Origin: Conyzicola lurida
Lineage (GTDB): Bacteria > Actinomycetota > Actinomycetes > Actinomycetales > Microbacteriaceae
Assembly (NCBI RefSeq): GCF_014204935.1
Contig: NZ_JACHMJ010000001.1
Coordinates: 2,976,001 to 3,040,000 of the forward strand
Direction of reading: 5' to 3'
Length of the DNA: 64,000 nt
The notes under the pieces are model-generated. The model was not told where the DNA came from, ran no database searches, and saw only the letters and a list, made by a program, of their open reading frames with translations. The translations under genes and the position numbers were made by a program. How positions within the stretch are numbered: the first letter of the stretch is position 1; each line of letters starts with the position of its first letter. Of this stretch, positions 14,573 through 27,950 are shown piece by piece.

Positions 14573-15373
14573 TCAGACCCGCAGTTCTCGGAGGACGCGC
14601 TGGAGCGGATCGGCGAGTCCCGGTGCCGCGGCGAGCGCGAAATCGGCGCTCGCGGGGGCGCCGTCGAGACCGGTCACGACGGCTCCGGCCTCGCGGGCGA
14701 CGAGCGCCGCGGCGGCGTGATCCCACGGCTTGAGGCCGCGCTCGAAATACCCGTTCAGACGGCCCGTTGCCACGGCACAGAGGTCGAGAGAGGCCGCCCC
14801 GAACCGGCGGATGTCGCGCACCAACGGGAGCAGTCCGGCGACCACCTCGCCCTGCCTCGCACGCTCCGCGGAGTCGTACGAGAAACCGGTGCCGACGAGG
14901 GCCTGCTCGAGTGAGTGAAAATCGGGAACTTTAAGCTGCTGATTTGCCGAGAACGCACCCCCGGCCTCCGTCGCTGTATAGATCTCGCCGGTCACCGGAT
15001 TGGTGACGCAGCCGGCGAGCGCGCGCCAGGTGAGCGGGTCGGGATCGCCCTCCACCACCGCGATGCTGACGGCCCAGTGCGGGATTCCGTACAGGTAGTT
15101 GACGGTGCCGTCGATCGGGTCGACGACCCAGGTGAGGCCGCTCGCGCCCCGTCCCGCGCCGCCCTCCTCGCCGAGGAACCCGTCGTCGGGTCGCACGTCG
15201 GCGATCAGGGACCGGATCAGCAGTTCGGTCTCGCGGTCGGCCATCGTGACGACGTCGACCGGGCTCGACTTGTGGTCGGCGATCTCGACGCCCTCGATGC
15301 GACGGCGGTGCGCGAGCTCGCCGGCGGTCACTGCGGTGGCGCGGGCGAGCGCGAGGAGTTCGTCGTGGGCCAT
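14573..15373 (-). CDS. Inositol monophosphatase family protein
   Basis: This 266-residue Mg-dependent phosphatase has the family's metal-binding motifs: GFLGEEGG, DPIDGTVNYLYG and LKPWDHAAAALVAREAGA. Substrates in this family include inositol-1-phosphate, histidinol phosphate, PAP and fructose-1,6-bisphosphate; the sequence alone does not decide. The start ATG 15373 has TACCGT six bases upstream (leaderless). It stands alone between an M23 gene and an IclR regulator on the same strand. Confidence 0.9.
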   Translation of the reverse strand: MAHDELLALARATAVTAGELAHRRRIEGVEIADHKSSPVDVVTMADRETELLIRSLIADVRPDDGFLGEEGGAGRGASGLTWVVDPIDGTVNYLYGIPHWAVSIAVVEGDPDPLTWRALAGCVTNPVTGEIYTATEAGGAFSANQQLKVPDFHSLEQALVGTGFSYDSAERARQGEVVAGLLPLVRDIRRFGAASLDLCAVATGRLNGYFERGLKPWDHAAAALVAREAGAVVTGLDGAPASADFALAAAPGLADPLQRVLRELRV

Positions 15374-15406
15374 GACTCCACGGTACCCGGGTAGCAGGGG
15401 CCGCCG

Positions 15407-16183
15407 TCAGCCGCGCTGCAGCGCCCGCAGCGCCGTCGACGCCTGCTTGCCGGCCTGCACCACGAGCTGCGCGAGCTGCTCGTCGGTGCCGACCTCGCGC
15501 GAGGCCAGCACGGCGACGCTCAGCGCCCCGGCCGGTTCGGGGTCGAGCCCGAACACCGGCACGGCGATGCTCCGCGACAGCGGCACCCGCTCCCCCGACG
15601 TCGTCGCCCAGCCGCGCTCGCGCACGAGCGCCAGCCGCTCGCGGATCTCCCCGGGGTCGACGACGGTCGTCGAGGTGTACTGCAGCAGGGGCACCGTGAG
15701 GGCGAGGTCGATGTCCTTCTCCGGCATAAAGGCGAGGATGGCGTTGCCGCTCGCACCGCCCGTGAGCGGGTGACTGTCGCCGACGCCGATGGTCACGCGG
15801 ATCGGCTGCGCGCTCTCCACCTGGGCGACGTAGACGCGCCGGTAGCCGACGCGCGAGCAGAGGATGCTCGTCTCGCCGGTGACGCTGGCCAGCCAGGAGA
15901 GCGCGGGCATCGCCGCCGTGCGCACATCGCTGTTCGCGGTGGCCCGGCGGCCGAGCGCGATCGCGGCGGGGCCCAGGCCGTAGGTGCGCTTGTCGGGCTG
16001 GTAGACGAGCATCGCCGTTTCGACGAGCGTCTGCAGGATGCGGTGCACGACCGCTTTGCCCAGCCCTAGCTCCCGGGAGATCTCGCTCACCCCGAGCCAG
16101 GGCGCATCGCCGGTGAAGCACAGCAGCACCCGTGCGACCCGCTCGGTGGTCGAGGCAGGCGTGGGGGTGGCGAGAGCGTTCAC
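15407..16183 (-). CDS. IclR-family transcriptional regulator
   Basis: This 258-residue regulator has an N-terminal winged helix (VSEISRELGLGKAVVHRILQTL) and a C-terminal effector-binding domain (LTGGASGNAILAF, GVPLSRSIAVPVF-like region). GTG 16183 is chosen because AGGAG lies six bases upstream. An upstream frame to GTG 16237 would run through the operator-like palindrome at 16231-16247 and is less likely. It is divergent from the ten-gene catabolic operon at 16392 and two identical-spacing palindromes lie between. It probably controls that operon and itself, with an aromatic or organic acid intermediate as effector (inference). Confidence 0.9.
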   Translation of the reverse strand: MNALATPTPASTTERVARVLLCFTGDAPWLGVSEISRELGLGKAVVHRILQTLVETAMLVYQPDKRTYGLGPAAIALGRRATANSDVRTAAMPALSWLASVTGETSILCSRVGYRRVYVAQVESAQPIRVTIGVGDSHPLTGGASGNAILAFMPEKDIDLALTVPLLQYTSTTVVDPGEIRERLALVRERGWATTSGERVPLSRSIAVPVFGLDPEPAGALSVAVLASREVGTDEQLAQLVVQAGKQASTALRALQRG

Positions 16184-16230
16184 GGGCAACTCCTGAGTCG
16201 CAATCATCGATCGGCTGAATTGCTCAAATT

Positions 16231-16247
16231 GTTCCACTCTTCGGAAC
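16231..16247. promoter_or_regulatory. Operator-like palindrome 1 (IclR side)
   Basis: GTTCC-N7-GGAAC (GTTCCACTCTTCGGAAC), 17 bp. It lies 48 bases upstream of the chosen IclR start. It is identical in arms and spacing to palindrome 2. Confidence 0.65.
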
Positions 16248-16357
16248 GATTTGTCCAGCTTGCCAATTTTTGAAACACGGAGTTAACACTGGGGCAACGG
16301 TGGGCGCGTTTTCGGTGGCTACTTTCGTCTGTAAGCCAAGAAGGCACCAGGAGAACC

Positions 16358-16374
16358 GTTCCATTCAGCGGAAC
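16358..16374. promoter_or_regulatory. Operator-like palindrome 2 (operon side)
   Basis: GTTCC-N7-GGAAC (GTTCCATTCAGCGGAAC), 17 bp. It ends 17 bases before the TTG start of the binding-protein gene, overlapping the likely transcript start or leader, so a bound IclR protein would block the operon. Confidence 0.65.
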
Positions 16375-16391
16375 ACATCAGAGGAGCAGCG

Positions 16392-17645
16392 TTGATAAGA
16401 GGCACCAGGTACGCAGCAATCGCGGGACTCGCGATCGCGTCTATTTCCCTCACCGCGTGTGCGGGTTCAGCCATGAGCACGTCGACCGAGTCCACCGAGG
16501 CGGGCGTCACCGTCGACGAGGTCGTCATCGGTTCGCTTCACCCCGAGAGCGGCTCCAGCGCCGCCGACGGCCAGCAGATGGCGCGCGGCGCACAGTACGC
16601 CGTCGACGCGATCAACGAGGCGGGCGGCATCGAGTCGCTCGGCGGCGCGAAGCTCGTGCTCTCCTCCGCCGACACCCAGGGCAAGCCCGAAGTCGGCCAG
16701 AGCGAGGCGACCCGCCTCATCCAGGAGGGTGCCGTCGCACTCATCGGCACCTACCAGAGCGCTACCAGCGCCAACGTCGCCGCCGTCGCCGAGCGCAGCA
16801 AGGTGCCGTTCGTGATGGACATCTCCAGCCTCGACGAGATCCTCGACCAGGGCTACACCTACTCCTTCCGCCTGCAGCCCAACGCGACCCTCATGGGTAC
16901 GCAGGGCGCCGAGGCGCTCATCGCCATGGGCGAGGCGTCCGACGAGCCCGTCGAGAAGGTGGCCTTCCTCTACGAGCAGGGCAACTTCGGCCAGGCGACG
17001 CTCAAGTCGTTCCAGGCCGCCGCCGAGGAGGCCGGCGTGACCGTCGACCCCGTCATCAGCTACGACGCCGCGAGCGTCAGCGACATGACGACGCAGGTGC
17101 AGCAGGTCGCGGCGTCCGGTGCCGACGTGCTCGCCGTCGCCGGCTACTACCGCGACAGCCTGCTCGTGTCGCAGGCGGTCGACACGATCAAGCCCGACCT
17201 CGACGCCGTCTTCGGTGTCGCCAACGGCGCCTACGACCAGCCGCAGTTCGTCACCGACGCCCCGAACGGCGGCGAGGGCTACTTCGACGCCAACTACCAC
17301 TGGGACGTCACCAACGACGCCGCCGTCGAGCTGGCCGACAAGTACGAGGCCGAGTTCGGCGAGCCGATCCGCACCGGCGCCGTGCTCTCCTACGACGCGG
17401 TCATGGTGATCGCCGCGGCCCTCGAGGAGTCGGGAACCGTCGACACCACCGACCTGCGCGACGCGATCGCCGACAGCAGCTACGAGCCGCTCGTCGTGAG
17501 CAACGGCCCCGTGTCCTTCGACGAGGACGGCGAGAACACCAACGCCTCGATCGTGGTCATGCAGGTCCAGGATGGCGCGATCAAGCAGGTCTACCCGGAC
17601 GACCGCGCGGAGAGCGACTTCCTCTACCCCGCGCCCGTCAACTAG
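16392..17645 (+). CDS. ABC transporter substrate-binding lipoprotein, branched-chain amino acid type
   Basis: This 417-residue protein has a lipoprotein signal: basic start, hydrophobic core (YAAIAGLAIASISL) and lipobox LTAC with Cys near residue 23. The mature part is a periplasmic-binding-protein type I fold (Peripla_BP_6), recognised by IGSLHPESGSSAADGQQMARGAQYAVDAIN in pieces such as VIGSLHPESG and ARGAQYAVDAIN. The start is TTG 16392 with GAGGAG five bases upstream. It is the first gene of the IclR-flanked operon and captures the substrate. In this family ligands range from Leu/Ile/Val to urea, amides and aromatic acids, so the ligand is open. Confidence 0.93.
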   Translation: MIRGTRYAAIAGLAIASISLTACAGSAMSTSTESTEAGVTVDEVVIGSLHPESGSSAADGQQMARGAQYAVDAINEAGGIESLGGAKLVLSSADTQGKPEVGQSEATRLIQEGAVALIGTYQSATSANVAAVAERSKVPFVMDISSLDEILDQGYTYSFRLQPNATLMGTQGAEALIAMGEASDEPVEKVAFLYEQGNFGQATLKSFQAAAEEAGVTVDPVISYDAASVSDMTTQVQQVAASGADVLAVAGYYRDSLLVSQAVDTIKPDLDAVFGVANGAYDQPQFVTDAPNGGEGYFDANYHWDVTNDAAVELADKYEAEFGEPIRTGAVLSYDAVMVIAAALEESGTVDTTDLRDAIADSSYEPLVVSNGPVSFDEDGENTNASIVVMQVQDGAIKQVYPDDRAESDFLYPAPVN

Positions 17646-17691
17646 CCAGCGCAACCAGCAGTACCGAACACCGACAGATCAGGAGAGGCCC

Positions 17692-18705
17692 ATGACGACG
17701 AACACGCAACCACGGGCGGAGCTCGAAGCTCCCCCCGTCGCGCGCCGCCGCATCCGCTTGAGCAGGGAGATGACCAAGACGCTCGTCGTCACCGTCGTGA
17801 TCCTCACGATCGTCGCCGTCGCGGCGGGCATCGTCTCGGGGAGCACGACAGTGCTCACCCAGGCCCTCGTCACCGGCGTGCTCACCGGCGGGATCTACAG
17901 CCTCATCGCCATGGGCCTCACCCTGATCTACGGTGTTCTGCACATCATCAACTTCGCCAATGGCGCGATGGTGGCGCTCTCGCTCTACCTCACCTACGAG
18001 GTCGTGTCGATCTTCGGAGTGCACCCGTACCTCGCGCTCGTCATCACCATCCCGGTGATGATGGGCCTCGGGGCGCTCGTGCAGGCCGTGCTGCTCAACC
18101 CCGTCATGCGGGCGCCGATCCACACGCAGCTGCTCATCACGATCGGCCTCGCCCTGGCCATCGAGAACCTGCTGCTGCTGGTCTTCGGCCCCAACCCGCT
18201 GTCGGTGCAGCTGCCGGGCAACACCGGAGTGCCGGTCCTCGGCGCCACGGTCGAGTTGTCGCGCATCTACGCGTTCATCGGATCGCTCGTGCTCGTCGCG
18301 GCCCTCTGGCTTCTGCTCAAGCGCACGGCGATCGGAACCGCCATCCGCGCCGTCGCCGCCAATCCGGAGGGCGCGCGCCTCGTCGGCATCAACATCAAGG
18401 GCATCTACATCCTCACCTTCGCGATCGGCGCGGCGGCGGCGGGAGCGGCGGGCACCCTGATCGCCCCGTTCTCCACGATCCAGCCCACGGCCGGCGCGAT
18501 CTTCAACCTCACCGCCTTCGTCGTGGTCGTGCTCGGCGGCATGGGCAACGTGCCCGGCGCGCTCGTGGGCGGCCTCGTCGTCGGGCTCACCGAGCAGCTC
18601 GGCGCCCTCATATTCCCCGGCCAGTCACCGCTCCTCGCGGTGTTCGTGGTCTTCCTCATCGTTCTGTTCGTCAAGCCCAAGGGCGTATTCGGGAGGGCAT
18701 CGTGA
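17692..18705 (+). CDS. ABC transporter permease, LivH type
   Basis: This 337-residue membrane protein has the LivH hallmarks GGIYSLIAMGLTLIYGVLHIINFANGA and NPEGARLVGIN in the cytoplasmic loop, and a glycine-rich segment VVVLGGMGNVPGALVGGLVVG. The start ATG 17692 follows an AGGAGAGG Shine-Dalgarno. A 4-bp overlap links it to the LivM-type gene. With it, it forms the translocation channel for the operon's substrate. Confidence 0.93.
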   Translation: MTTNTQPRAELEAPPVARRRIRLSREMTKTLVVTVVILTIVAVAAGIVSGSTTVLTQALVTGVLTGGIYSLIAMGLTLIYGVLHIINFANGAMVALSLYLTYEVVSIFGVHPYLALVITIPVMMGLGALVQAVLLNPVMRAPIHTQLLITIGLALAIENLLLLVFGPNPLSVQLPGNTGVPVLGATVELSRIYAFIGSLVLVAALWLLLKRTAIGTAIRAVAANPEGARLVGINIKGIYILTFAIGAAAAGAAGTLIAPFSTIQPTAGAIFNLTAFVVVVLGGMGNVPGALVGGLVVGLTEQLGALIFPGQSPLLAVFVVFLIVLFVKPKGVFGRAS

Positions 18706-19775
18706 GCGTCACCACCCCCACAAGGACCAGCAAGCAGGCCCCGGACGCGGACCTCGCCACCCCCTTCCTCACGCTCGCCCCGCGGCGGCCGTTCCCCTAC
18801 GAGTACGTCATCCTCACCGTCATCCTGATCGCCGGTGCCGCGCTCCCGTTCATCCTGCCCGCGGCCGAGATGGCGATCGCCGTCCGCGTCCTGGTGTTCG
18901 CCCTCATGGGCATCGGCTGGAACATCATGAGCGGCTTCGGCGGCATGTTCAGCTTCGGTCACGCCGCCTACTTCGGCATCGGCTCCTACACGGCGGGCTT
19001 CATGCTCGTCGAGTTCGGCGTCAGCCCGTGGATCGGCCTCGTCGTCGGCATGGTGGTCGCGGTCATCGCGGCAGTCGGCATCAGCTACCTCGCCTTCCGC
19101 TACAAGCTCGAGGGCGCGTACTACGCGATGTCGACCTTTGCCTTCGCCGAGATGCTGCGGCTGTTCGTCAGCGGCAACGACGCGCTTCACCGCACCGTCG
19201 GCTTCACCGTGCCGGTACTGCCCGAGTCGTCCTTCGCGATGTTCCAGTTCGACGCCGGTTCGCCGCTGTACTTCTGGATCGGCCTCGTCATGGTCGGTAT
19301 CGCGCTGCTCACGAGCATCGTCTTCTTGCGCAGCCGCACCGGCCGCTTCACGCTGGCGGCGCGCGACAACGAGATGGCGGCATCCGCTCTCGGTATCAAC
19401 GTCCTTCGCTACAAGCTCACCGCCGTCGCGATCTCGGCCGCGATCACCGCCTCGGCCGGCGTGCTGTACCTGCAGTTCTACATGTTCATCGACCCCGACC
19501 TGGCCTTCGGAGCCCATGTCTCGAACAACGCGATCATCACCACGGTCGTCGGCGGCGCCGGCACCATCTGGGGCCCGCTCGTCGGCGCGATCATCATGGC
19601 GCCCCTCTCCGACGTCGTCGCCGGGTTCCTGCGCAACCCGCCCGAGCAGCTGTCGTTCCTCGCCGGGCACGGCGGGCTCGACCTGCTCCTCTACGCGGTG
19701 ATCCTGATCGCGTTCGTCATCCTGCTGCCCAAGGGCATCTACGGCACCATCTGGAACAAGGTGAAGAAGAAATGA
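18702..19775 (+). CDS. ABC transporter permease, LivM type
   Basis: A 357-residue permease with about nine hydrophobic helices. Family motifs are NIMSGFGGMFSFGHAAYFGIGSYT (in pieces: GGMFSFGHAAYFG), AARDNEMAASALGINVLRYKL and VVGGAGTIWGPLVGA. The GTG start overlaps the LivH-type stop and its TGA overlaps the ATG of the next ATPase gene, so all four transport genes are translationally coupled. Confidence 0.93.
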   Translation: MSVTTPTRTSKQAPDADLATPFLTLAPRRPFPYEYVILTVILIAGAALPFILPAAEMAIAVRVLVFALMGIGWNIMSGFGGMFSFGHAAYFGIGSYTAGFMLVEFGVSPWIGLVVGMVVAVIAAVGISYLAFRYKLEGAYYAMSTFAFAEMLRLFVSGNDALHRTVGFTVPVLPESSFAMFQFDAGSPLYFWIGLVMVGIALLTSIVFLRSRTGRFTLAARDNEMAASALGINVLRYKLTAVAISAAITASAGVLYLQFYMFIDPDLAFGAHVSNNAIITTVVGGAGTIWGPLVGAIIMAPLSDVVAGFLRNPPEQLSFLAGHGGLDLLLYAVILIAFVILLPKGIYGTIWNKVKKK

Positions 19776-20503
19776 GCCTTCTCGAGGTACGCAACTTCAG
19801 CAAGTCCTTCCGCGGGCTCAAGGCCCTGCGCGAGGTCGACATCAGCGTCGACGAGGGCACGATCCTCGGCATCATCGGAGCCAACGGCGCGGGCAAGACC
19901 ACGCTGTTCAACTGCATCATGGGTGCCTTCCCGCCCGACTCCGGAACCGTCACCCTCGACGGTAAGGACGTCACCGGCGTCGCCAGCCACAAACTGGCCA
20001 AGCTCGGGATGGTGCGTACCTTCCAGTTGATGCGCCCGTTCCACACCATGACGGTCTTCGAGAACGTCACGATCGCCGCCCTCAGCCACGGCGCGAAGAG
20101 CGACCGGGCGGCGCGAGCCGAAGCGGCCGTCGCGATCGGCAAGACCGGGCTCGCCGAGTGGGCCGAGAGCGAGTCCGGCCAGCTGCCCGCCGCGGTGCAG
20201 AAGCGTCTCGAGCTCGCACGCGCCCTCGCGATGCGGCCGCGCGTGCTGCTGCTCGACGAGGTGCTGGCCGGGCTCGTGCCCGCCGAGCGCCTGCCCGTGC
20301 TGGAGCTGCTCGAGACGCTGCGCGCCGACGAGGGCGTGACGATGATCTTCATCGAGCACATCATGGCGGCCGTGCGCCGCCTCAGCGACAGCGTCGTGAT
20401 GATGGACCAGGGTGCCGTGCTGGCCAGCGGCCAGGTCGACACGGTGCTCGCCGACCCCCTCGTGATCGAGGCCTACCTGGGCAAGGAGTACACCAATGCT
20501 TGA
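19772..20503 (+). CDS. ABC transporter ATPase, LivG type
   Basis: This 243-residue nucleotide-binding subunit starts at ATG 19772 inside an ATGA overlap. Walker A is GANGAGKTT and Walker B is LLLDEVLAGL with the switch His in IFIEHIM. The signature segment reads QLPAAVQKRLELARAL instead of LSGGQ; weakened signatures occur in the LivG branch, but this one keeps none of the glycines. The partner LivF has an intact signature, so the dimer would have one canonical ATP site. Confidence 0.92.
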   Translation: MSLLEVRNFSKSFRGLKALREVDISVDEGTILGIIGANGAGKTTLFNCIMGAFPPDSGTVTLDGKDVTGVASHKLAKLGMVRTFQLMRPFHTMTVFENVTIAALSHGAKSDRAARAEAAVAIGKTGLAEWAESESGQLPAAVQKRLELARALAMRPRVLLLDEVLAGLVPAERLPVLELLETLRADEGVTMIFIEHIMAAVRRLSDSVVMMDQGAVLASGQVDTVLADPLVIEAYLGKEYTNA

Positions 20504-21194
20504 AGTCACCGATGTGCGCAGCGGCTACCACGGTCTCGAGATCGTGCACGAGCTCTCGCTCACCGTCGCCCCCGGCGAGATCGTCGCCATCGTGGGTGCC
20601 AACGGCGCCGGCAAGTCGACGACCCTCAAGACCATCGTCGGCGAGGTGAAGCGCTTCGGCGGTTCGGTCGTGTTCGACGGCAAGCCGGTCGTCACGGGGC
20701 GCTCGTTCGACCTCGCCCGCGCCGGCCTCATGCTGGTGCCCGAGCACCGCGCGCTCTTCGGCTCGCTCACCGTCGAAGAGAACCTGCAGATGGGTACCTG
20801 GGGCAAGCGCGACCGCGTCGGCTTCAGCGAAGAGGAGATCCTCGACCTGTTCCCGATCCTGCGCGAACGCCGCAGCCAGCTCGCCGAGACGATGTCGGGC
20901 GGCCAGCAGCAGATGCTCGCCATCGCCCGCGCGCTCATGGGTGCCCCGCGCCTGCTGATGCTCGACGAGCCGTCGACCGGTCTTTCGCCGAAGCTCACCT
21001 GGGAGGTGTTCCACGCGATCAACGCCATCCGCGAGCGCGGGGTCAGCATCCTCCTCGTCGAGCAGAACGCCGGCCAGGTACTCGAGCTCGCCGACCGCGC
21101 CTACGTCATGGAATCCGGCTCCGTCGTTCTCGAGGGCACCGGCACCGAGCTCGCCGCCGACGAGCGCGTGCAGTCGGCGTACCTCGGAGTCTGA
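20496..21194 (+). CDS. ABC transporter ATPase, LivF type
   Basis: A 232-residue ATPase with Walker A GANGAGKST, signature MSGGQQQMLAIARALM, Walker B LLMLDEPSTGLSPKL and switch His-equivalent in LLVEQNAGQ, the Gln-Asn form usual for LivF. It overlaps the LivG gene by 8 bp. It powers import with LivG. The next gene begins 3 bp after its stop, so the enzymes are in the same transcript. Confidence 0.93.
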   Translation: MLEVTDVRSGYHGLEIVHELSLTVAPGEIVAIVGANGAGKSTTLKTIVGEVKRFGGSVVFDGKPVVTGRSFDLARAGLMLVPEHRALFGSLTVEENLQMGTWGKRDRVGFSEEEILDLFPILRERRSQLAETMSGGQQQMLAIARALMGAPRLLMLDEPSTGLSPKLTWEVFHAINAIRERGVSILLVEQNAGQVLELADRAYVMESGSVVLEGTGTELAADERVQSAYLGV

Positions 21195-21197
21195 CCG

Positions 21198-22571
21198 GTG
21201 TTCGTCGATCCCATCTCCGAGAGCGACGCTCTCGAGCACGCCGCCGCTCTGGCCGGACTCGGCCGCTGGGCACACGCGTTCGAGCTGTCCGAGCTCGGCG
21301 AGAGCGCCCGCACCGCACTGGACGACGTGCTGGCGAACCTGCTCGCCGTCGCGGCCGGAGGTGCGGCGACCGAGGAGCACGCCGCACTCGTCGCCGCGTG
21401 GGATCCGGAACCGGGATCGGCGACCCTCCTCGGCGGCGGAACGGCCACCGTCGAGACGGCCGCGTGGCTCAACGGCGTGGCCTCCGTCGCGATGGAACGC
21501 GACGAGGGCAACCGGCTGACCAAGGGCCACCCCGCCTCGCAGAGCTTCTTCGCCGTGCTGGCCCTGGCCGAACGCCTCGGCAGCTCCGGCCCCGACACCC
21601 TCGCCGCACTGGCCGTCGCCTACGAGGTCGCGGCCCGGTTCGGCCGCGCCACCGACTTCGCCACCGGCGTGCACACGCACGGCACCTTCGGCGTTCCCGG
21701 GGCCGCCGCGGGCTGCGCCCGGCTTCTGGGGTTGGATGCCGCGGGCATCTCCTCCGCGATCGACGCGGCCTGCGCCATGCCGCCGTCGACCAGCTGGGGA
21801 CCGGTGCTCGTGGGCAGCAGTGTCCGCGACCAGTGGGTCGGAGCCGGCAACGTCGCGGGAATCGCCGCCGCGCGCTTCGCCGCCGCCCGTCCCGGCGAGA
21901 CAGTACGGGGAACCCTCCCCGGCTTCGGCGGCTCGCTCGGTACCGTCGACCCGCGACTCCTCGTCGCCGGCCTCGGCACCGAGACTCTGATCGAGCACGG
22001 CTACTTCAAGCGCCACTCCTCCTGTGCCTACACGCACGCCCCGGCAGACGCCGCGCTGCTCGCCCGCGAGCGCATCGCCGCCGCCGGCGCGACCCCCGCC
22101 GACATCGTCGCGGTCGAGGTCTCGACGACCGCCGCGGGTGCCGCCCTCGACGCGACCGACTGGACGACCCGCCACGGCGCCTACTTCTCCGTGCCGTTCG
22201 CCGTCGCCAGCGCACTGGTGCACGGCGACGTGGCACACTCCCGTTCCGCACCGTCGGCCCGCGGCATCCTGCTCGACACGGCAGCCATGATCACTGTCAC
22301 CGACGGCGGTATCGCCCCGGCGAGCGCCACCCACCGGCCGGCCCGCGTCACCGTGACGCTCCGTGACGGCAGCTCGGTCGTCACCGAGGTGCCGCACCCC
22401 GCCGGCGATGCCGACTTCACCCCGTTCGACCGTGCCGCCCACGCGGCGCTGCTCGACGACGCCCTCGTCGGCGTCACCTCCCCCGCCGCTTCCACCGTCG
22501 TCGCCGTCGTCGCGGCGCTGCCCCACGCCGGGCGGGCGGGCGACCAGTTCGCCCTGCTCCGCTCGCACTGA
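21198..22571 (+). CDS. MmgE/PrpD family protein
   Basis: This 457-residue protein belongs to the family of 2-methylcitrate dehydratase, cis-aconitate decarboxylase and related enzymes. The N-terminal helical domain has ATVETAAWLNGVASVAMERDEGN and GTFGVPGAAAGCARLLGLD. The C-terminal part has YFKRHSSCAYTHAPADAALLA, matching the family's YK-x4-C-x3-H pattern. It starts at GTG 21198 directly after LivF. No propionate genes are nearby, so a dedicated dehydratase, hydratase or isomerase role in this operon's pathway is more likely than the methylcitrate cycle (inference). Confidence 0.88.
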   Translation: MFVDPISESDALEHAAALAGLGRWAHAFELSELGESARTALDDVLANLLAVAAGGAATEEHAALVAAWDPEPGSATLLGGGTATVETAAWLNGVASVAMERDEGNRLTKGHPASQSFFAVLALAERLGSSGPDTLAALAVAYEVAARFGRATDFATGVHTHGTFGVPGAAAGCARLLGLDAAGISSAIDAACAMPPSTSWGPVLVGSSVRDQWVGAGNVAGIAAARFAAARPGETVRGTLPGFGGSLGTVDPRLLVAGLGTETLIEHGYFKRHSSCAYTHAPADAALLARERIAAAGATPADIVAVEVSTTAAGAALDATDWTTRHGAYFSVPFAVASALVHGDVAHSRSAPSARGILLDTAAMITVTDGGIAPASATHRPARVTVTLRDGSSVVTEVPHPAGDADFTPFDRAAHAALLDDALVGVTSPAASTVVAVVAALPHAGRAGDQFALLRSH

Positions 22572-22598
22572 ACACCCACCATGAAGGAGAACACCCGC

Positions 22599-23273
22599 AT
22601 GAGCATCGACTGGAACACCGAAGTCGCCAAGATCCGCGAGCTACGTGCGGCCCGCACCAAGGTCGGGCCCGGTACGACTCCGGCCGTCGTCGTCGTCGAC
22701 TTCCAGCGGGCGTTCACCGAGCACGAGAACATCGGCCCGTCGACCGCGATCGCGCTCGAGCACACCAACGAGCTGCTCGTCGCGGCCCGCGCCGCCGGTG
22801 TGCCCGTGATCTACCTCGTGATGATCCTCGACTCGCTCGACGACCGCATGCTCGCGCAGCGCGTGCGCTCGAGCCTCACCGAGCGCTGCGGCCGCGGCAA
22901 CCCGTGGACAGAGATCTCCAGCGCCGTGCCCGCGCAGCCCGGCGACCACATCGTCGAGAAGACGGTGGCGAGCGGTTTCTACAAGACGCGCCTCGAAGAC
23001 CTGCTGCACGAGCTCGGCGTCGACGAGGTCGTGATGACCGGCACGTCGACGAGCGGCTGCGTGCGCGCCACCGTCGTCGACGCGGCGTACCGCAACTTCC
23101 GCATCAGCGTCGTCGAGGAGTGCAGCGACGACTTCCGCACCCTCTCGGGCGAGGTCTCGCTCTGGGACATGCAGGACCGCTTCGGCGACGTCGTCTCCAA
23201 GTCGTGGATGCTCGACCGCTTCGCCGCCCTCCAGACCGAACGCGCCCTGGACGGTGCCGGAGTCTCCCTGTGA
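22599..23273 (+). CDS. Isochorismatase-like cysteine hydrolase (amidohydrolase)
   Basis: This 224-residue protein has the complete catalytic triad of the cysteine hydrolase family: D34 in VVVVDFQRAF, K121 in IVEKTVASGFYKT and C154 in TSTSGCVRAT. Members cleave amides or ureides (N-carbamoylsarcosine amidase, nicotinamidase, maleamate and biuret hydrolases). ATG 22599 is preferred over ATG 22581 because AAGGAGA lies eight bases before it. It overlaps the next gene by 4 bp. Its place beside ring-hydrolase-like proteins suggests it cleaves an open-chain half-amide or carbamoyl intermediate and releases ammonia (inference). Confidence 0.9.
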   Translation: MSIDWNTEVAKIRELRAARTKVGPGTTPAVVVVDFQRAFTEHENIGPSTAIALEHTNELLVAARAAGVPVIYLVMILDSLDDRMLAQRVRSSLTERCGRGNPWTEISSAVPAQPGDHIVEKTVASGFYKTRLEDLLHELGVDEVVMTGTSTSGCVRATVVDAAYRNFRISVVEECSDDFRTLSGEVSLWDMQDRFGDVVSKSWMLDRFAALQTERALDGAGVSL

Positions 23274-24208
23274 CGATCCAGAACAACGACCGCCTGGTCT
23301 ACGAGGCGATGCCCACGCGCCCCCTCGTCACCTGGCCCGAGGGCAAGACGGTCGCGGTCTGGCACGCGCCGAACGTCGAGCACTACGACTACGTCGCCCC
23401 GGGCGGCGGCAGCCCGCAGGGCCGCACGCGCTATCCCGACCCCCAGCACTACATGCACCGCGACAACGGCAACCGCACCGCCTTCTGGCGCCTGCTGCGC
23501 GCCGTCGACAAGTACGAGATCCCGTCGACGGTGTCGCTCAGCCTCTCGGTGCTCGAGGAGATCCCCGAGGTACGCGACGCCATGGCCGAGCGCGACTGGG
23601 AGATCATGAGCCACGGCATCTCCAACCTGCGCCCGCTCTACGACATGCCCTACGACGACGAAGACCGCTTCTACGAGCTCTCGCAAAAACTGTCGGAGAC
23701 CTACTACGGGGGAAAGCGCATCAAGGGCATGCTCGGCCCGAAGATCTCCGGCACCGACAACACGAGCGACCTCATGGTCAAGCACGGCATGACCTACCAC
23801 GCGGACTGGATCCACGACGAGCAGCCGCGGCCGATCCGCACTGAGGGCGCGGGCAAGCTCGTCTCGATCCCCTACTCGTACATGCTCAACGACGTGCCGC
23901 TGCTGCTCGCCAAGCACTACCCCGGCAGCTACTTCGTCGCCATGGCGAAGGCGCAGATCGACCGGCTGCTGCGCGACGCCGACGAGGACGGCCAAGGCCG
24001 GGTGGCGTGCATCGCCACACACCCGTTCGTCACCGGCCAGCCCTACATGCAGCGCTACATCGAGGAGATCTTCGACTACCTGCGCAGCGACGACCGTCTC
24101 TGGGTCACCACCGCCGGAGACATCTCAGACCACTACCTCGAGAACAGCTACGACGAGCAGTTGGCGCACGCCGAGGTCATCGCCGCGGCACGGGAGGCTT
24201 CCGCATGA
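23270..24208 (+). CDS. Polysaccharide-deacetylase-fold hydrolase, PuuE (allantoinase)-like
   Basis: This 312-residue protein has the (beta/alpha)-barrel fold of the NodB/PuuE superfamily. The first motif is WHAPNVEHYDY with N35 and E37, resembling metal-independent allantoinase PuuE rather than the TFDDG of chitin deacetylases. Other likely pocket residues are H115 (IMSHGISN), the YHADWIHDEQP segment and H251 (THPFVTGQP). PuuE-like enzymes open cyclic amides such as allantoin; imidases have been placed in the same superfamily. I infer it hydrolyses a cyclic amide, imide or ureide. It is coupled by GTGA and ATGA overlaps to the genes on both sides, the second being a degenerate paralogue. Confidence 0.82.
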   Translation: MTIQNNDRLVYEAMPTRPLVTWPEGKTVAVWHAPNVEHYDYVAPGGGSPQGRTRYPDPQHYMHRDNGNRTAFWRLLRAVDKYEIPSTVSLSLSVLEEIPEVRDAMAERDWEIMSHGISNLRPLYDMPYDDEDRFYELSQKLSETYYGGKRIKGMLGPKISGTDNTSDLMVKHGMTYHADWIHDEQPRPIRTEGAGKLVSIPYSYMLNDVPLLLAKHYPGSYFVAMAKAQIDRLLRDADEDGQGRVACIATHPFVTGQPYMQRYIEEIFDYLRSDDRLWVTTAGDISDHYLENSYDEQLAHAEVIAAAREASA

Positions 24209-25122
24209 CCCTCATCCAGCACCCCGACGACGCCACCGTCTTCGCTCCCGGCCTGCCGCGCACGTTCGACACGCATCGCGCTCCGTGGGCCCTGCCCGAC
24301 GGCAAGAAGCTCGCGGTGAGCGTGCTGCTGCACGCCCCGAGCTATCAGGACGTGCCACCCGCGGGATCGTTCAAGCCGATCACGATGCAGGGCGGCGTCG
24401 GCCGCGACACCTCCGAGCCGAAGCACGGGCAGCTCGCCCGTCTCTCGCAGTGGGACTTCGGACTCACCGTCGGCATCTGGCGCCTGCTCGGCATCGCCGA
24501 GAAGGCCGGGGTTCCGGTCGCCGTCGCGCTCGACTCGTTCGGCGTGCGCACCATGCCGGGGCTCGCCGACCTCGTCGCCGAGCGCGCGCAGGAGATCGTG
24601 GTGCGCGGCAGCGCGGCGAACATCGTCATCGACGAGGCCATGACCGCGGAGCAGGAACGCGAGTACATCACCGAGGCCCGCTCCTCCGTCGAAGCCGCGA
24701 CCGGCCGCACCGCCACGGGCTGGTTCTCGCCCGAGCGCGCGAACAGCCTGCGCACGCCGGAGCTGCTGCGCGGGGCCGGCTTCGACTGGTTCGGCGACTG
24801 GCCCGTCGACGAGCGCCCCGTCGCCCTCGACGGCGCGGCCACCGGTCTCACCGCCGTGCCCTTCGGCCTCGAGACGGAGGACATGTTCTCGCTCTACACC
24901 CGCAGCCTTGCCTTCCCCGACTACGAGCGCCTGCTCGACGAGACGATCGAGCAGCTGGTCGCCGACGCGGATATCGTCGGCGCACGCTTCCTCGGACTCA
25001 GCTGGTTCGGCTGGGTGCTCGGCCAGGCCTGCTTCGCGGATGTCGCGGAACGCACCCTGCAGAAGCTGGCGGCCCACCCCGACGTGATCCTCGTGACCCC
25101 GGGACAGGTCGCGGCACTGTAG
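24205..25122 (+). CDS. Polysaccharide-deacetylase-fold protein, probable inactive paralogue
   Basis: This 305-residue protein aligns by eye along its length with the preceding gene product but has lost the polar pocket residues. LLHAPSYQD replaces WHAPNVEHY, so N35 becomes S46 and E37 becomes Q48. VVRGSAAN replaces MSHGISN, so H115 becomes R134. SWFGWVLGQ replaces THPFVTGQ, so H251 is lost. The WFGDWPVDERP segment (YHADWIHDEQP in the partner) is kept. It may be a non-catalytic subunit of a heteromer, or bind a different ligand. The ATGA overlap with its partner suggests matched synthesis. Confidence 0.8.
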   Translation: MTLIQHPDDATVFAPGLPRTFDTHRAPWALPDGKKLAVSVLLHAPSYQDVPPAGSFKPITMQGGVGRDTSEPKHGQLARLSQWDFGLTVGIWRLLGIAEKAGVPVAVALDSFGVRTMPGLADLVAERAQEIVVRGSAANIVIDEAMTAEQEREYITEARSSVEAATGRTATGWFSPERANSLRTPELLRGAGFDWFGDWPVDERPVALDGAATGLTAVPFGLETEDMFSLYTRSLAFPDYERLLDETIEQLVADADIVGARFLGLSWFGWVLGQACFADVAERTLQKLAAHPDVILVTPGQVAAL

Positions 25123-25124
25123 CG

Positions 25125-26540
25125 ATGACCACCCGCAATCCCCCGGCCGCCGACACCCCGGCCCGCCTCCCCCTGCCCGCGCGCTTCAGTCTGGCGCTCG
25201 GCACCGGCACCATCCTGCAGGGCCTGAACTCGGCGATCGTCGCCGTCGCGCTCATCCCGATCGCCCTGCACTTCGGCACCTCGGCCGCGATCCCGTGGAT
25301 CGTCAGCGGCCTGTACATCGCCTCCGCGGTCGGCTCCCCGGCCGCCGGGCGCCTGTCGGACCTGTTCGGCCCCCGCCGCATCTACCTGATCGGGCTCGCG
25401 GTCGTGCTGCTCGCCTCCGTCGCCGGCCCGTTCGTGCCGAGCGTCGAGTGGCTCGTGGTCGACCGCATCGTGCTCGGTCTCGGCGCGTCGATGCACTTCC
25501 CGGCGGCGATGGCGATCATCCGCCAGCAGGCCGCGAAACGCGAGCAGACGGCCACGGGCGCCATCGGCATCATCGCGATCTGCGGCCAGACCAGCGCCGC
25601 CCTCGGCCCGACGATCGGCGGCCTCGTGGTCGTCATCTGGGGCTGGGAGGGCATCTTCTGGGTCAACGTGCCGCTCGTGATCGCGTCGGCGATCTGGGTG
25701 CTCACCCAGGTGCCCGCCGACGAGGCGCGCAAGCGCTCCGGCGTCCTCGCCGGCATCCGCTCGATCGACCCGCTCGGCATGGGGCTCTTCGTCGCCACCG
25801 TCGTGCTGCTCATGCTCGGGCTGCTCTCGCTCGAGGGCGACCCGCAGTGGCTGCTGTTCGCCGCGTTCGTTCCCGTCGCCGCCCTGTTCGTGCTGCGCGA
25901 GCTGCGCACCCCGAGCCCATTCATCGACGTGCGGCTGATGCTGACCCACCGCCAGTTCGCGCTGACCTGCGCCCGCGCCATCCTGACCTTCATTTCTTTC
26001 TACTGCATCTTCTACGGACTGCCCCAGTGGCTCGAAGCCTCGAGAGGGCTGGATGCCGCGGCCACGGGCCTGCTGATGCTGCCGGTCTTCGGAGTCGGGG
26101 TCGCGTCGACCATCCTGGCCACCCGGCTCGGCAGGCGGCTCAAACCGCGCCTGCTGCTCGTGTTCGGCACGACCGCGATGGTGGTGGCCGGCGCGCTGCT
26201 CGCGCTGGTGACGAGCACCGATTCGCCGATCTGGCTGCTCGTGGTGATCAGCGTCCTGCTCGGCATCCCGAACGGCTTCAACAACCTCGGCAACCAGCTC
26301 ATCCTGCACTCGAGCGTCCCCGGCGCCAACGCCGGCAGCGCGAGCGGCATCTACCGCACCTCGCAGTACTTCGGCGCCGTGCTCTCCGCGGTGATCGTCG
26401 CGCACGTCGTCGGCGTCGGCGAGGCGGAGGGCGGCATCCGCACCCTCGGCGTCGTCATCGGCGGGCTCGGCGGCCTCATGCTCGTGACCAACCTCGTCGC
26501 CCTCTACCGGGGGCGCGGAAAATCGATGGTGGAACTGTGA
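25125..26540 (+). CDS. MFS transporter, DHA2 (EmrB/QacA-like) type
   Basis: A 471-residue transporter with about 14 hydrophobic helices. Motif A-like GRLSDLFGPRRIYLIG follows helix 2, and motif C-like ALGPTIGGLVVVIWGWEGIFWVNVP (in pieces: ALGPTIGG, WEGIFWVNVP) is typical of proton-coupled drug exporters. It starts two bases after the paralogue's stop and overlaps the next gene by 4 bp. In a catabolic operon it may export a toxic intermediate or product, or be a second route of uptake. Confidence 0.9.
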   Translation: MTTRNPPAADTPARLPLPARFSLALGTGTILQGLNSAIVAVALIPIALHFGTSAAIPWIVSGLYIASAVGSPAAGRLSDLFGPRRIYLIGLAVVLLASVAGPFVPSVEWLVVDRIVLGLGASMHFPAAMAIIRQQAAKREQTATGAIGIIAICGQTSAALGPTIGGLVVVIWGWEGIFWVNVPLVIASAIWVLTQVPADEARKRSGVLAGIRSIDPLGMGLFVATVVLLMLGLLSLEGDPQWLLFAAFVPVAALFVLRELRTPSPFIDVRLMLTHRQFALTCARAILTFISFYCIFYGLPQWLEASRGLDAAATGLLMLPVFGVGVASTILATRLGRRLKPRLLLVFGTTAMVVAGALLALVTSTDSPIWLLVVISVLLGIPNGFNNLGNQLILHSSVPGANAGSASGIYRTSQYFGAVLSAVIVAHVVGVGEAEGGIRTLGVVIGGLGGLMLVTNLVALYRGRGKSMVEL

Positions 26541-27604
26541 CCTCTCTCTTCGACTCCCTCCGGCTGCGCGACCTCACCGTCGCCAACCGCGTCTGGGTAT
26601 CACCGATGTGCATGTACGCCTGCGAGGGCGAACCGGGCGTCGTCGGCGCCTGGCACGTCGCGCACTACGGCCAGTTCGCGCTCGGCGGCGCGGGGCTCAT
26701 CGTGACCGAAGCCACCGCGGTGCTACCCGAGGGGCGCGTCACGCCCGAGGATGCCGGACTCTGGGGCGACGACCACGTCGCGCCGTGGAAGACGGTGACG
26801 GATGCCGTTCATCTGGCGGGTTCCGCGATCGCGGTCCAGCTGGCCCACGCCGGTCGCAAGGGCGGCAAGTTCCGCGGCCTGCCGGGCGACGAATTCGCGA
26901 ACTCGTCGGTGCCCGCGGACCTCGGTGGCTGGACCACGGTCGGCGCTACCGGCGAGGCGTTCGGACGCTACGACGCCCCCGCGAAGGCCACCGCCGACGA
27001 CCTCGCCGCCACGGTCGCGGCCTTCGGTGCCGCCGCCCGCCGCGCGGACGAGGCCGGCTTCGACGCGATCGAGTTGCACGGCGCGCACGGGTACCTGCTG
27101 CACGAACTGCTCTCGCCGGTCACCAACACCCGCGACGACGACTGGGCCTCGCGCGAGCGGCTGCTGCTCGAGACCGTCGCCGCGGTGCGCGCCAATTGGC
27201 CGCAGGGCAAGCCGCTCATCGTGCGACTCTCGGTGGACGACGTGGCGCCCGGCGGGCTGACCGCCGAGGACTCCGCGTCCCTCGCCACCCGCCTCGGCGA
27301 GCTCGGCGTTGACCTGATCGACTGCTCCTCGGGCGGCCTCGTGGCCGGTGCCGAGTACGCGGCGACCCCCGGCTACCAGGTACCCGGCGCGGCGACCGTG
27401 CGCCGGCTGTCGGGGCTCCCCACCTCGGCGGTCGGCCTCATCACGAGCCCCGAGCACGCGGCGTCGATCGTCGCCGAGGGCTCCGCCGACGCGGTGATGC
27501 TGGGGCGCGAGATGCTCCGCAATCCGTACTGGGCCAGGCACGCGGCATCCGCCCTGGGCGTTTCGCTGCCGGGGGTGTCGCGGTACCACCGCGCGCACGC
27601 GTAG
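26537..27604 (+). CDS. Old Yellow Enzyme-family NADPH-dependent ene-reductase (YqjM type)
   Basis: A 355-residue FMN barrel enzyme of the thermophilic-like class. SPMCMYAC carries the flavin-tuning C25 and Y27 characteristic of YqjM. LAHAGRKGG, ELHGAHGYLLHELLSPVTN (substrate-binding H181 and H184) and VMLGREMLRNPYW (phosphate loop) complete the fold. It reduces activated C=C bonds conjugated to carbonyls, such as maleimides or enones. It is the last gene of the operon, with a GTGA overlap from the MFS gene. An ene-reductase beside a ring hydrolase fits breakdown of an unsaturated cyclic imide or lactam (inference). Confidence 0.93.
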   Translation: MTSLFDSLRLRDLTVANRVWVSPMCMYACEGEPGVVGAWHVAHYGQFALGGAGLIVTEATAVLPEGRVTPEDAGLWGDDHVAPWKTVTDAVHLAGSAIAVQLAHAGRKGGKFRGLPGDEFANSSVPADLGGWTTVGATGEAFGRYDAPAKATADDLAATVAAFGAAARRADEAGFDAIELHGAHGYLLHELLSPVTNTRDDDWASRERLLLETVAAVRANWPQGKPLIVRLSVDDVAPGGLTAEDSASLATRLGELGVDLIDCSSGGLVAGAEYAATPGYQVPGAATVRRLSGLPTSAVGLITSPEHAASIVAEGSADAVMLGREMLRNPYWARHAASALGVSLPGVSRYHRAHA

Positions 27605-27780: not shown

Positions 27781-27821
27781 CGGCGTGCACAGCCCGCCGC
27801 GCGAAACCCCGGCGCACGAAA

Positions 27822-27844
27822 AAGCCCCGCACGAGGCGGGGCTT
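27822..27844. terminator. Bidirectional intrinsic terminator
   Basis: AAGCCCCGC (27822-27830), loop ACGAG, GCGGGGCTT (27836-27844), with A-run before and T-rich TCTCT after. It can end the catabolic operon on the plus strand and tRNA-Tyr on the minus strand. Confidence 0.88.
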
Positions 27845-27865
27845 CTCTGTTCCAGTCCGACTTCC

Positions 27866-27950
27866 TGGTGGCGAGTGAGGGATTCGAACCCCCGAATGCG
27901 ATGCAGTCTGATTTACAGTCAGATCCCTTTGGCCGCTTGGGTAACTCGCC
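27866..27950 (-). tRNA. tRNA-Tyr (GTA)
   Basis: Class II tRNA with acceptor GGCGAGT/ACTCGCC, anticodon arm TCTGA-CTGTAAA-TCAGA, a long variable arm and T arm GGGGG-TTCGAAT-CCCTC. The 3' CCA is encoded (27866-27868 complement), unlike the other two tRNAs here. Confidence 0.95.

Follow-up and report, generated by a model that had tools for sequence, protein, structure and literature searches.

A horizontally acquired operon of Conyzicola lurida with a putative role in opening a small cyclic imide or amide

Comparison with described systems

In the available parts of the published accounts, nicotinate breakdown by Aspergillus nidulans involves an old yellow enzyme (OYE), HxnT, a cyclic imide hydrolase related to HpPgdA and PuuE, HxnM, and an amidase, HxnN, the OYE acting two steps before the imide hydrolase and the amidase after it; HxnM was assigned from the accumulation of substrate in a deletion strain (PMC9304392), and hxnM is listed as EC 3.5.2.16 (PMC8478523). 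This lower hxn pathway appears to be the nearest described parallel to an operon that we analyzed in Conyzicola lurida, and the operon may work in a similar way. It lies at positions 15407-27604 of a 64,000-nucleotide stretch (the window) of contig NZ_JACHMJ010000001.1, the single contig of a 3.64 Mb genome, and comprises a divergent IclR gene and eleven + strand genes, twelve in all, where the initial annotation had counted ten genes on one strand. The + strand genes encode, in order, a substrate-binding protein, LivH, LivM, LivG, LivF, an MmgE/PrpD protein, a cysteine hydrolase, two proteins with a PuuE-like deacetylase fold (PDA1 and PDA2), a major facilitator superfamily (MFS) transporter, and an OYE. 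Family scans confirmed the gene families and coordinates first assigned, and the two gaps reported, 46 bases (17645/17692) and 27 bases (22571/22599), were correct; at all other junctions the genes overlap by 4-8 bases or lie 2-3 bases apart.

Both systems combine an ene-reductase, a PuuE/HpPgdA-related imide hydrolase and a half-amide amidase (both putative in the window), transporters, and a dedicated regulator. The hxn system, as far as its description was available, differs in being fungal, in having one imide hydrolase rather than a pair, and in having an amidase likened to FAAH1, whereas that of the window has an isochorismatase fold; the same parts of that description name neither a Liv importer nor a PrpD protein (PMC9304392). 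The Mo-hydroxylase, FAD monooxygenases, and ketoreductase of the hxn system had no counterpart among the twelve operon genes, the rest of the genome not having been searched. Because it is without the hydroxylases and the ketoreductase, and its amidase belongs to another family, we do not regard the operon as a member of the hxn pathway. The gene combination had been said to match no pathway; no description of this gene module was found in the literature searched, which was open-licence full text only, but the accessible parts of the hxn account hold the closest logic (PMC9304392).

PuuE allantoinase shares with PDA1 its fold and the conserved His, Asn-Asp, and His, but the window has a two-gene arrangement (PDA1-type genes are called A and PDA2-type genes B below), its scores lie far under the equivalog cut-off, and no purine genes were recognised among the twelve operon genes. 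The maleamate amidohydrolases (presumably those named NicF and Ami) and N-carbamoylsarcosine amidohydrolase resemble the window's cysteine hydrolase in family, D-K-C triad, and TSGCVRAT motif, but the operon is without other nicotinate or creatinine genes. PrpD, isopropylmaleate hydratase, and the methylisocitrate and dimethylmalate lyases carry out established chemistry, namely hydration and C-C cleavage; the families that handle alkylmaleate or alkylmalate in this way (PrpD, LeuCD, methylisocitrate/dimethylmalate lyase) lie beside the module in some relatives, whereas the window has only the PrpD-like protein, whose closest solved sequence is IDS-epimerase (2hp3).

The conserved core and the PDA1/PDA2 pair

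A PDA2 scan of GTDB species genomes gave nine confirmed loci, with identities of 60-73% in six and 24-26% in three, and a family search added a seventh orthologous locus, G671. The cysteine hydrolase, PDA1, PDA2, and MFS genes were contiguous and in the same order in all seven orthologous loci other than the window. This supports the coherent catabolic operon proposed in the initial annotation, which had expected the two deacetylase-like genes to co-occur with the isochorismatase and PrpD genes in other genomes and had counted a failure to do so against the idea: the first three genes stayed together throughout, and PrpD accompanied them in two loci (L015, Microbacterium, and L019, Isoptericola) and not in the other five. 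The IclR, Liv importer, and OYE genes were present in three of the seven, these two and L016, a Cellulomonas metagenome-assembled genome (MAG). The core can occur without PrpD, OYE, or the Liv importer.

PDA1 keeps the PuuE-type residues N35, E37, H115, N207, D208, and H251; in PDA2 four conserved residues have been replaced (Glu by P45, His by R134, Asn by E225, and His by F268). In the alignment the Glu, His, Asn-Asp, and His were kept in 19 of 19 A proteins and in 8 of 8 single-copy ones, and the PDB relatives 3s6o and 1z7a share the His, Asn-Asp, and His. Among the 19 B proteins the Glu was kept by nine, the first His by six, the Asn by none, the last His by five, and the Asp by all, and in the eight belonging to the window's clade the Glu, both His, and the Asn were replaced. 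PDA1 has Asn119 at the position of the second His ligand of HpPgdA, as placed by sequence spacing rather than structural alignment from the part of that description available (PMC3084791), and PuuE is described as not metal-dependent in the accessible part of another account (PMC10967932). Foldseek matched the PDA1 model best to PuuE itself (3cl6, E 2.0e-15) and the PDA2 model best to 3rxz, 1z7a, and 3cl6 (E 4.8e-12 to 1.4e-10), the latter model, with a mean pLDDT of 69.5 from 7 sequences, being used for fold only. Both proteins are therefore assigned a predicted PuuE/imidase-like fold, the distorted barrel of 3cl6, 1z7a, and 3qbu, as the initial annotation had held; together, however, they look less like two ring hydrolases than like a pair in which PDA1 is active and PDA2 degenerate. 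PDA2 does not qualify as another ring hydrolase of the ordinary kind, as it has lost four of the conserved residues, yet the protein stays conserved in its orthologues, of which seven share 116 invariant columns.

In the tree the A proteins formed one group (96/97) and the B proteins lay to one side of a branch (90/99, short of the star given by the tool); several long B branches were flagged by the tree tool, which makes the grouping of B less certain than that of A. The A and B distances were correlated (Mantel r 0.93, 0 of 10000 permutations, n 19), also when one member of the window's clade was used (r 0.90, 0 of 10000 permutations, n 12); such co-divergence would also arise from shared ancestry of linked genes alone. 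Co-divergence and tandem overlap together suggest, without proving contact, that active PDA1 and degenerate PDA2 form one two-subunit enzyme, in which PDA1 would be a PuuE-like cyclic amidohydrolase and the catalytic subunit and PDA2 a degenerate PuuE-fold paralogue acting as its partner. PDA2 might instead have an active site of its own and act on a second ring or bond, an alternative that is compatible with the other readings and that we hold to be possible, though the less probable one. The PDA2 orthologues keep invariants of their own, including C276, W267-W270, E223-D226, and R134 (seven sequences), and other B members retain some of the old residues; against this stand the loss of the ND-motif Asn from every B member, the survival of the last His in only five, and the variation within the B group in which residues were lost, as expected for relaxed catalysis.

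The full D-K-C triad first seen in the cysteine hydrolase was present in 23 of 23 aligned sequences, that of the window included. Its closest PDB sequences were 4l07, 4l08, 26st (named N-carbamoylsarcosine amidohydrolase), 3ot4, and 1nba; we take 4l07 and 3ot4 to be maleamate amidases, and the protein is a putative half-amide amidase. The MmgE/PrpD protein scored only 32.3 bits with the 2-methylcitrate dehydratase PrpD model NF042438 (equivalog cut-off 950) and is a putative hydratase or epimerase of a dicarboxylate. The OYE belongs to PF00724 but fell short of the NADPH dehydrogenase NamA model NF010047 (341.1 bits, equivalog cut-off 431); its closest PDB entries were 7o0t and 3gr7, with 1z41 (YqjM) also among the matches. 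Of the 43 matches in the NCBIfam scan of the operon proteins 25 were listed, and among these the best for the MFS protein was TIGR00711 (139 bits, cut-off 230.2). The closest PDB sequence to the binding protein, 8wch, is named a probable Leu/Ile/Val-binding protein.

Table 1. Features of the operon, its borders and control region, and the fusion gene of related loci
Feature	Coordinates	Strand	Basis or remarks
IclR-family regulator	15407..16237	-	PF01614 + PF09339; 53-56% identical in L015, L016, L019
Substrate-binding protein, Liv-type ABC importer	16392..17645	+	PF13458 173 bits
LivH-like permease	17692..18705	+	PF02653
LivM-like permease	18702..19775	+	PF02653
LivG-like ATPase	19772..20503	+	PF00005 + PF12399
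LivF-like ATPase	20496..21194	+	PF00005
MmgE/PrpD family protein	21198..22571	+	PF03972 101.6 bits, PF19305 55 bits; cut-off 32.1 each
Isochorismatase-fold cysteine hydrolase	22599..23273, alternative start 22581	+	PF00857 119.3 bits, cut-off 27
PDA1	23270..24208	+	PF01522 26.9 bits (cut-off 23.1); TIGR03212 86.7 bits
PDA2	24205..25122	+	Pfam: no match; weak TIGR03212 48.6 bits; predicted fold PuuE-like
DHA2-type MFS transporter	25125..26540	+	PF07690 174.3 bits
Old yellow enzyme, YqjM-like ene-reductase	26537..27604	+	PF00724 215.2 bits
Palindrome GTTCCACTCTTCGGAAC, candidate IclR operator	16231..16247	.	IclR/substrate-binding protein intergenic region
Palindrome GTTCCATTCAGCGGAAC, candidate IclR operator	16358..16374	.	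IclR/substrate-binding protein intergenic region
Inserted segment	15388..27809		Borders against G332; blastn, no matching DNA between flanks in four congeners
tRNA-Tyr	27866..27950	-	ARAGORN; right border of insertion, flank common to congeners
FAD monooxygenase/lyase fusion	L020:4511-6604, L017:4790-6757, L099:7018-9138, L100:12088-14184		

Proposed pathway and alternative readings

We propose, giving it about an even chance of being correct, that this is an IclR-controlled, horizontally acquired operon that imports and dismantles a small cyclic imide or a close cyclic amide. The Liv-type importer would take the compound into the cell, and the OYE would reduce an activated C=C where one is present. 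PDA1, in a mixed complex with degenerate PDA2, would hydrolyse a ring C-N bond to give a half-amide, from which the cysteine hydrolase would free ammonia to leave a dicarboxylate; the MmgE/PrpD protein would hydrate or isomerise this diacid for host metabolism, and the MFS protein would move the substrate or a product. We infer these reactions, their order, and the imide substrate; ring opening followed by amide cleavage, the scheme originally suggested, is the best reading. The product class is most likely a maleate-, alkylmaleate-, or succinate-type diacid.

The route from a cyclic imide through a half-amide to an (alkyl)maleate-type diacid is favoured because diacid hydratases, an isomerase-like protein, and lyases occur in some relatives, which add a maleate-isomerase-like protein, PrpD or LeuCD hydratases, and PEP-mutase/CitE/HMG-lyase-type lyases. 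PrpD was found in four of the 18 loci, each spanning 18-21 kb (17 matches in 46.6 Mb, expected 0.13, Poisson 1.1e-5), with a fifth match 123 bases outside the Novosphingobium stretch, and a PEP-mutase lyase likewise in 4 of 18 (44 matches in 46.6 Mb, expected 0.34, Poisson 4e-4). LeuC was present in two loci (Acidiphilium and Burkholderia), HMG-CoA-lyase-like genes in L012 and L024, and CitE-like (CitE/RipC-like lyase) genes in L020 and L025. Such a set of neighbours would be accounted for if a maleate-type diacid underwent hydration and C-C cleavage.

Several observations weigh against this pathway. Both enrichment counts were made after the neighbours had been seen, and the loci are not independent, L015 and L019 likely representing one inheritance and L017 and L020 likewise. 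L016, a MAG, lacks PrpD in locus and genome, and four of the seven other orthologous loci (L017, Kineosporia; L020, Arthrobacter; G671; and L018 of Rhodococcus G791) showed no orthologue of the Liv, OYE, or PrpD genes at the locus, so that OYE/PrpD chemistry is separable from the core; these four carry another module instead, and the additional amidases or esterases close to their cores may point to a larger molecule. A C=C could be the target of OYE and PrpD alike, so that the two perhaps do not act on the same compound, and the annotated stretches of L059-L062 hold no hydratase or lyase of the families above. On a Salipiger plasmid hydantoinase/oxoprolinase genes lie beside the hydrolase, A, and B genes, and the likeness of the cysteine hydrolase to N-carbamoylsarcosine amidohydrolase fits a ureide. 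Within the window's clade the correlation of A and B distances was only 0.40 (n 8, not permuted).

An alternative that we consider unlikely is a ureide route, in which PDA1/PDA2 would open a ring resembling that of a hydantoin, a dihydropyrimidine, or allantoin and a carbamoyl group would be removed by the cysteine hydrolase. The allantoinase model TIGR03212 is the only NCBIfam model for PDA1 and PDA2 among the matches listed, but their scores (Table 1) compare with an equivalog cut-off of 424.6. The cysteine hydrolase is close to 26st and 1nba and gives weak matches to the RutB and biuret hydrolase models, plasmids of Microbacterium and Kocuria carry single-copy PDA genes in the neighbourhood of genes annotated as N-carbamoylsarcosine amidohydrolase, and the Salipiger genes would also fit; the diacid hydratases, isomerase-like protein, and lyases of some relatives, on the other hand, have no evident role in ureide breakdown. 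We think it improbable that the core serves detoxification, with a toxic ring compound being hydrolysed and exported and DHA2 MFS efflux forming the essential part. The core includes the MFS gene in all eight orthologous loci, window included, drug-efflux models score best for its product (among the matches listed), and the operon is sporadic in distribution and inserted; however, the best of those efflux models was under its cut-off, and the Liv importers here, the Dpp-type importers near the core in two relatives, the ene-reductase, and the diacid enzymes point to nutrition.

There is also a variant of the cyclic-imide pathway, to which we give little credence, in which A/B is an ancient, obligate two-subunit imide hydrolase, its dead paralogue required by the live one, that has spread horizontally among Actinobacteria and Proteobacteria and serves the breakdown of alkylmaleimides such as those from tetrapyrrole (chlorophyll, haem) oxidation. 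The imide would pass to alkylmaleamate, alkylmaleate, and, through PrpD or LeuCD, alkylmalate, which PEP-mutase/CitE/HMG-lyase-type lyases would cleave to a keto acid and an acid. The idea comes from enzyme logic, and no bacterial pathway for tetrapyrrole-derived maleimides appeared in the titles and abstract openings of the literature searched. The Liv families throughout the importer and closest solved binding proteins named Leu/Ile/Val-binding could be cited for an ordinary operon of branched-chain amino acid uptake in which the other genes are unrelated passengers; this is very improbable, as the IclR gene, the palindromes of Table 1, and the Liv, cysteine hydrolase, PDA1, PDA2, MFS, and OYE genes travel together in L015, L016, and L019.

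Insertion site, regulatory region, and wider module

The operon is a horizontally acquired insertion. Five other genomes of the genus were compared, of which four carry both flanking genes, inositol monophosphatase (IMPase) on the left and phospholipase-D-like on the right, and the fifth, G553 (63% complete), matched neither; by blastn the operon was absent from all four with both flanks. Homology with these congeners ends at window positions 15336-15387 and restarts at 27810-27868 by tRNA-Tyr, and their unmatched gaps are about 340, 500, 620, and 2,900 bases, where the window has about 12.4 kb. Among 397 other genomes of the family, only G671 had a PDA2 orthologue (64% identity); 24 further family genomes gave PDA2 matches of 23-32% identity only, and the five congeners gave none. 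Family scans of the twelve operon genes revealed no integrase. A tRNA-site element was considered and rejected, as the tRNA-Tyr 3' end (its first 12 bases or more) does not recur in the window and the best repeat shared by the border regions, 13 bases, lies away from the junctions. The longest of the congeners' gaps, in G460 (L084:1049-3972), holds about 2.9 kb of other DNA between the same IMPase and tRNA-Tyr genes, and the site may be an insertion hot spot.

The likely start of the IclR gene is an ATG near 16207, 10 codons inside the annotated frame. Two conserved palindromes, at 16231 and 16358 on either side of the IclR promoter region, fit the pattern GTTYCRNNNNNYGGAAC and are candidate operators to which IclR would bind. 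Two copies were present in this intergenic region in all four loci with this IclR (window, L015, L016, and L019), and the pattern was not found in 15 other loci scanned. It gave four strand matches in the window against a shuffled expectation of 0.05, a descriptive figure, the pattern having been derived from these sites; with two mismatches allowed there were 43 matches against 31 expected, no real excess. Across the 3.64 Mb genome the pattern occurred at three further places, 651994 and 3206906 (a perfect palindrome), which fall within predicted genes, and 3208506, an imperfect match on one strand only, flanked by two divergent predicted genes. Considered as second sites of the regulon, these were judged to be chance matches, 3208506 less surely so.

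The cysteine hydrolase gene lay directly upstream of A in 15 of the 18 A/B loci other than the window, loci that were partly chosen for holding two matches. In G113, Agrobacterium, and Arthrobacter crystallopoietes, A and B were present and the hydrolase gene was kilobases off or outside the stretch. The hydrolase-A-B triad recurs across Proteobacteria and Actinobacteria, being found on plasmids of Acidiphilium, Burkholderia plantarii, Comamonas, Variovorax, Salipiger, Terrarubrum, and Novosphingobium and also in G031. In a draw of 396 genomes from the phylum, PDA1 relatives at E 1e-25 or better occurred in six; the window, G113, and G031 have a second PDA gene adjoining, and G237, G727, and G278 had no second copy in their 3.8 kb loci, so that single-copy relatives were as common as pairs in this draw. 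PuuE-like genes in L011 (Arthrobacter crystallopoietes pLDW-10) and L014 (Alicycliphilus pDP3) lie beside xanthine-dehydrogenase-type, CoA-ligase-type, and quinone-oxidoreductase genes, and these look like N-heterocycle clusters. FAD_binding_2 (fumarate-reductase-like) proteins are encoded beside LeuCD at L012:12922-14310 and L057:3360-4715, where they perhaps replace the ene-reductase.

The module carried by the four orthologous loci without Liv, OYE, and PrpD consists of an IclR gene, a double carbon-nitrogen hydrolase, a FAD monooxygenase/PEP-mutase-type lyase fusion, an Amdase/maleate-isomerase-like protein, a Dabb protein, and a second isochorismatase. This module directly adjoins the core in L017 and L020 and lies about 12.5 kb away in G671 and 9.5 kb in G791, where a Dpp-type importer and two methyltransferases intervene. 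The fusion, of about 700 residues, joins a PnpA/HspB-like FAD monooxygenase to a methylisocitrate/dimethylmalate-lyase-like domain and is conserved in four actinobacterial genomes; it was not seen in the four Liv-type genomes (one a MAG), whose PEP-mutase matches were in frames of at most 638 residues. G671 (L056 + L099) and G791 (L018 + L100), two distant actinobacteria, have in common a cluster of about 19-23 kb made up of the fusion module, the Dpp-type importer with the two S-adenosylmethionine (SAM) methyltransferases, and the hydrolase-PDA1-PDA2-MFS core.

The operon is a new arrangement built of known families, and chemistry of the class proposed here is likely. The analysis predicts a recurrent three-gene module that opens and deamidates nitrogen rings, its plasmid-borne genes now going mostly under the names 'polysaccharide deacetylase' and 'isochorismatase', together with an enzyme/pseudoenzyme pair in a family otherwise met, in the accounts available in part, as single-gene enzymes. 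If this is true, many loosely named genes of catabolic plasmids would gain a testable function, and the turnover of cyclic imides, both natural maleimides and imide pesticides, would gain candidate genes.

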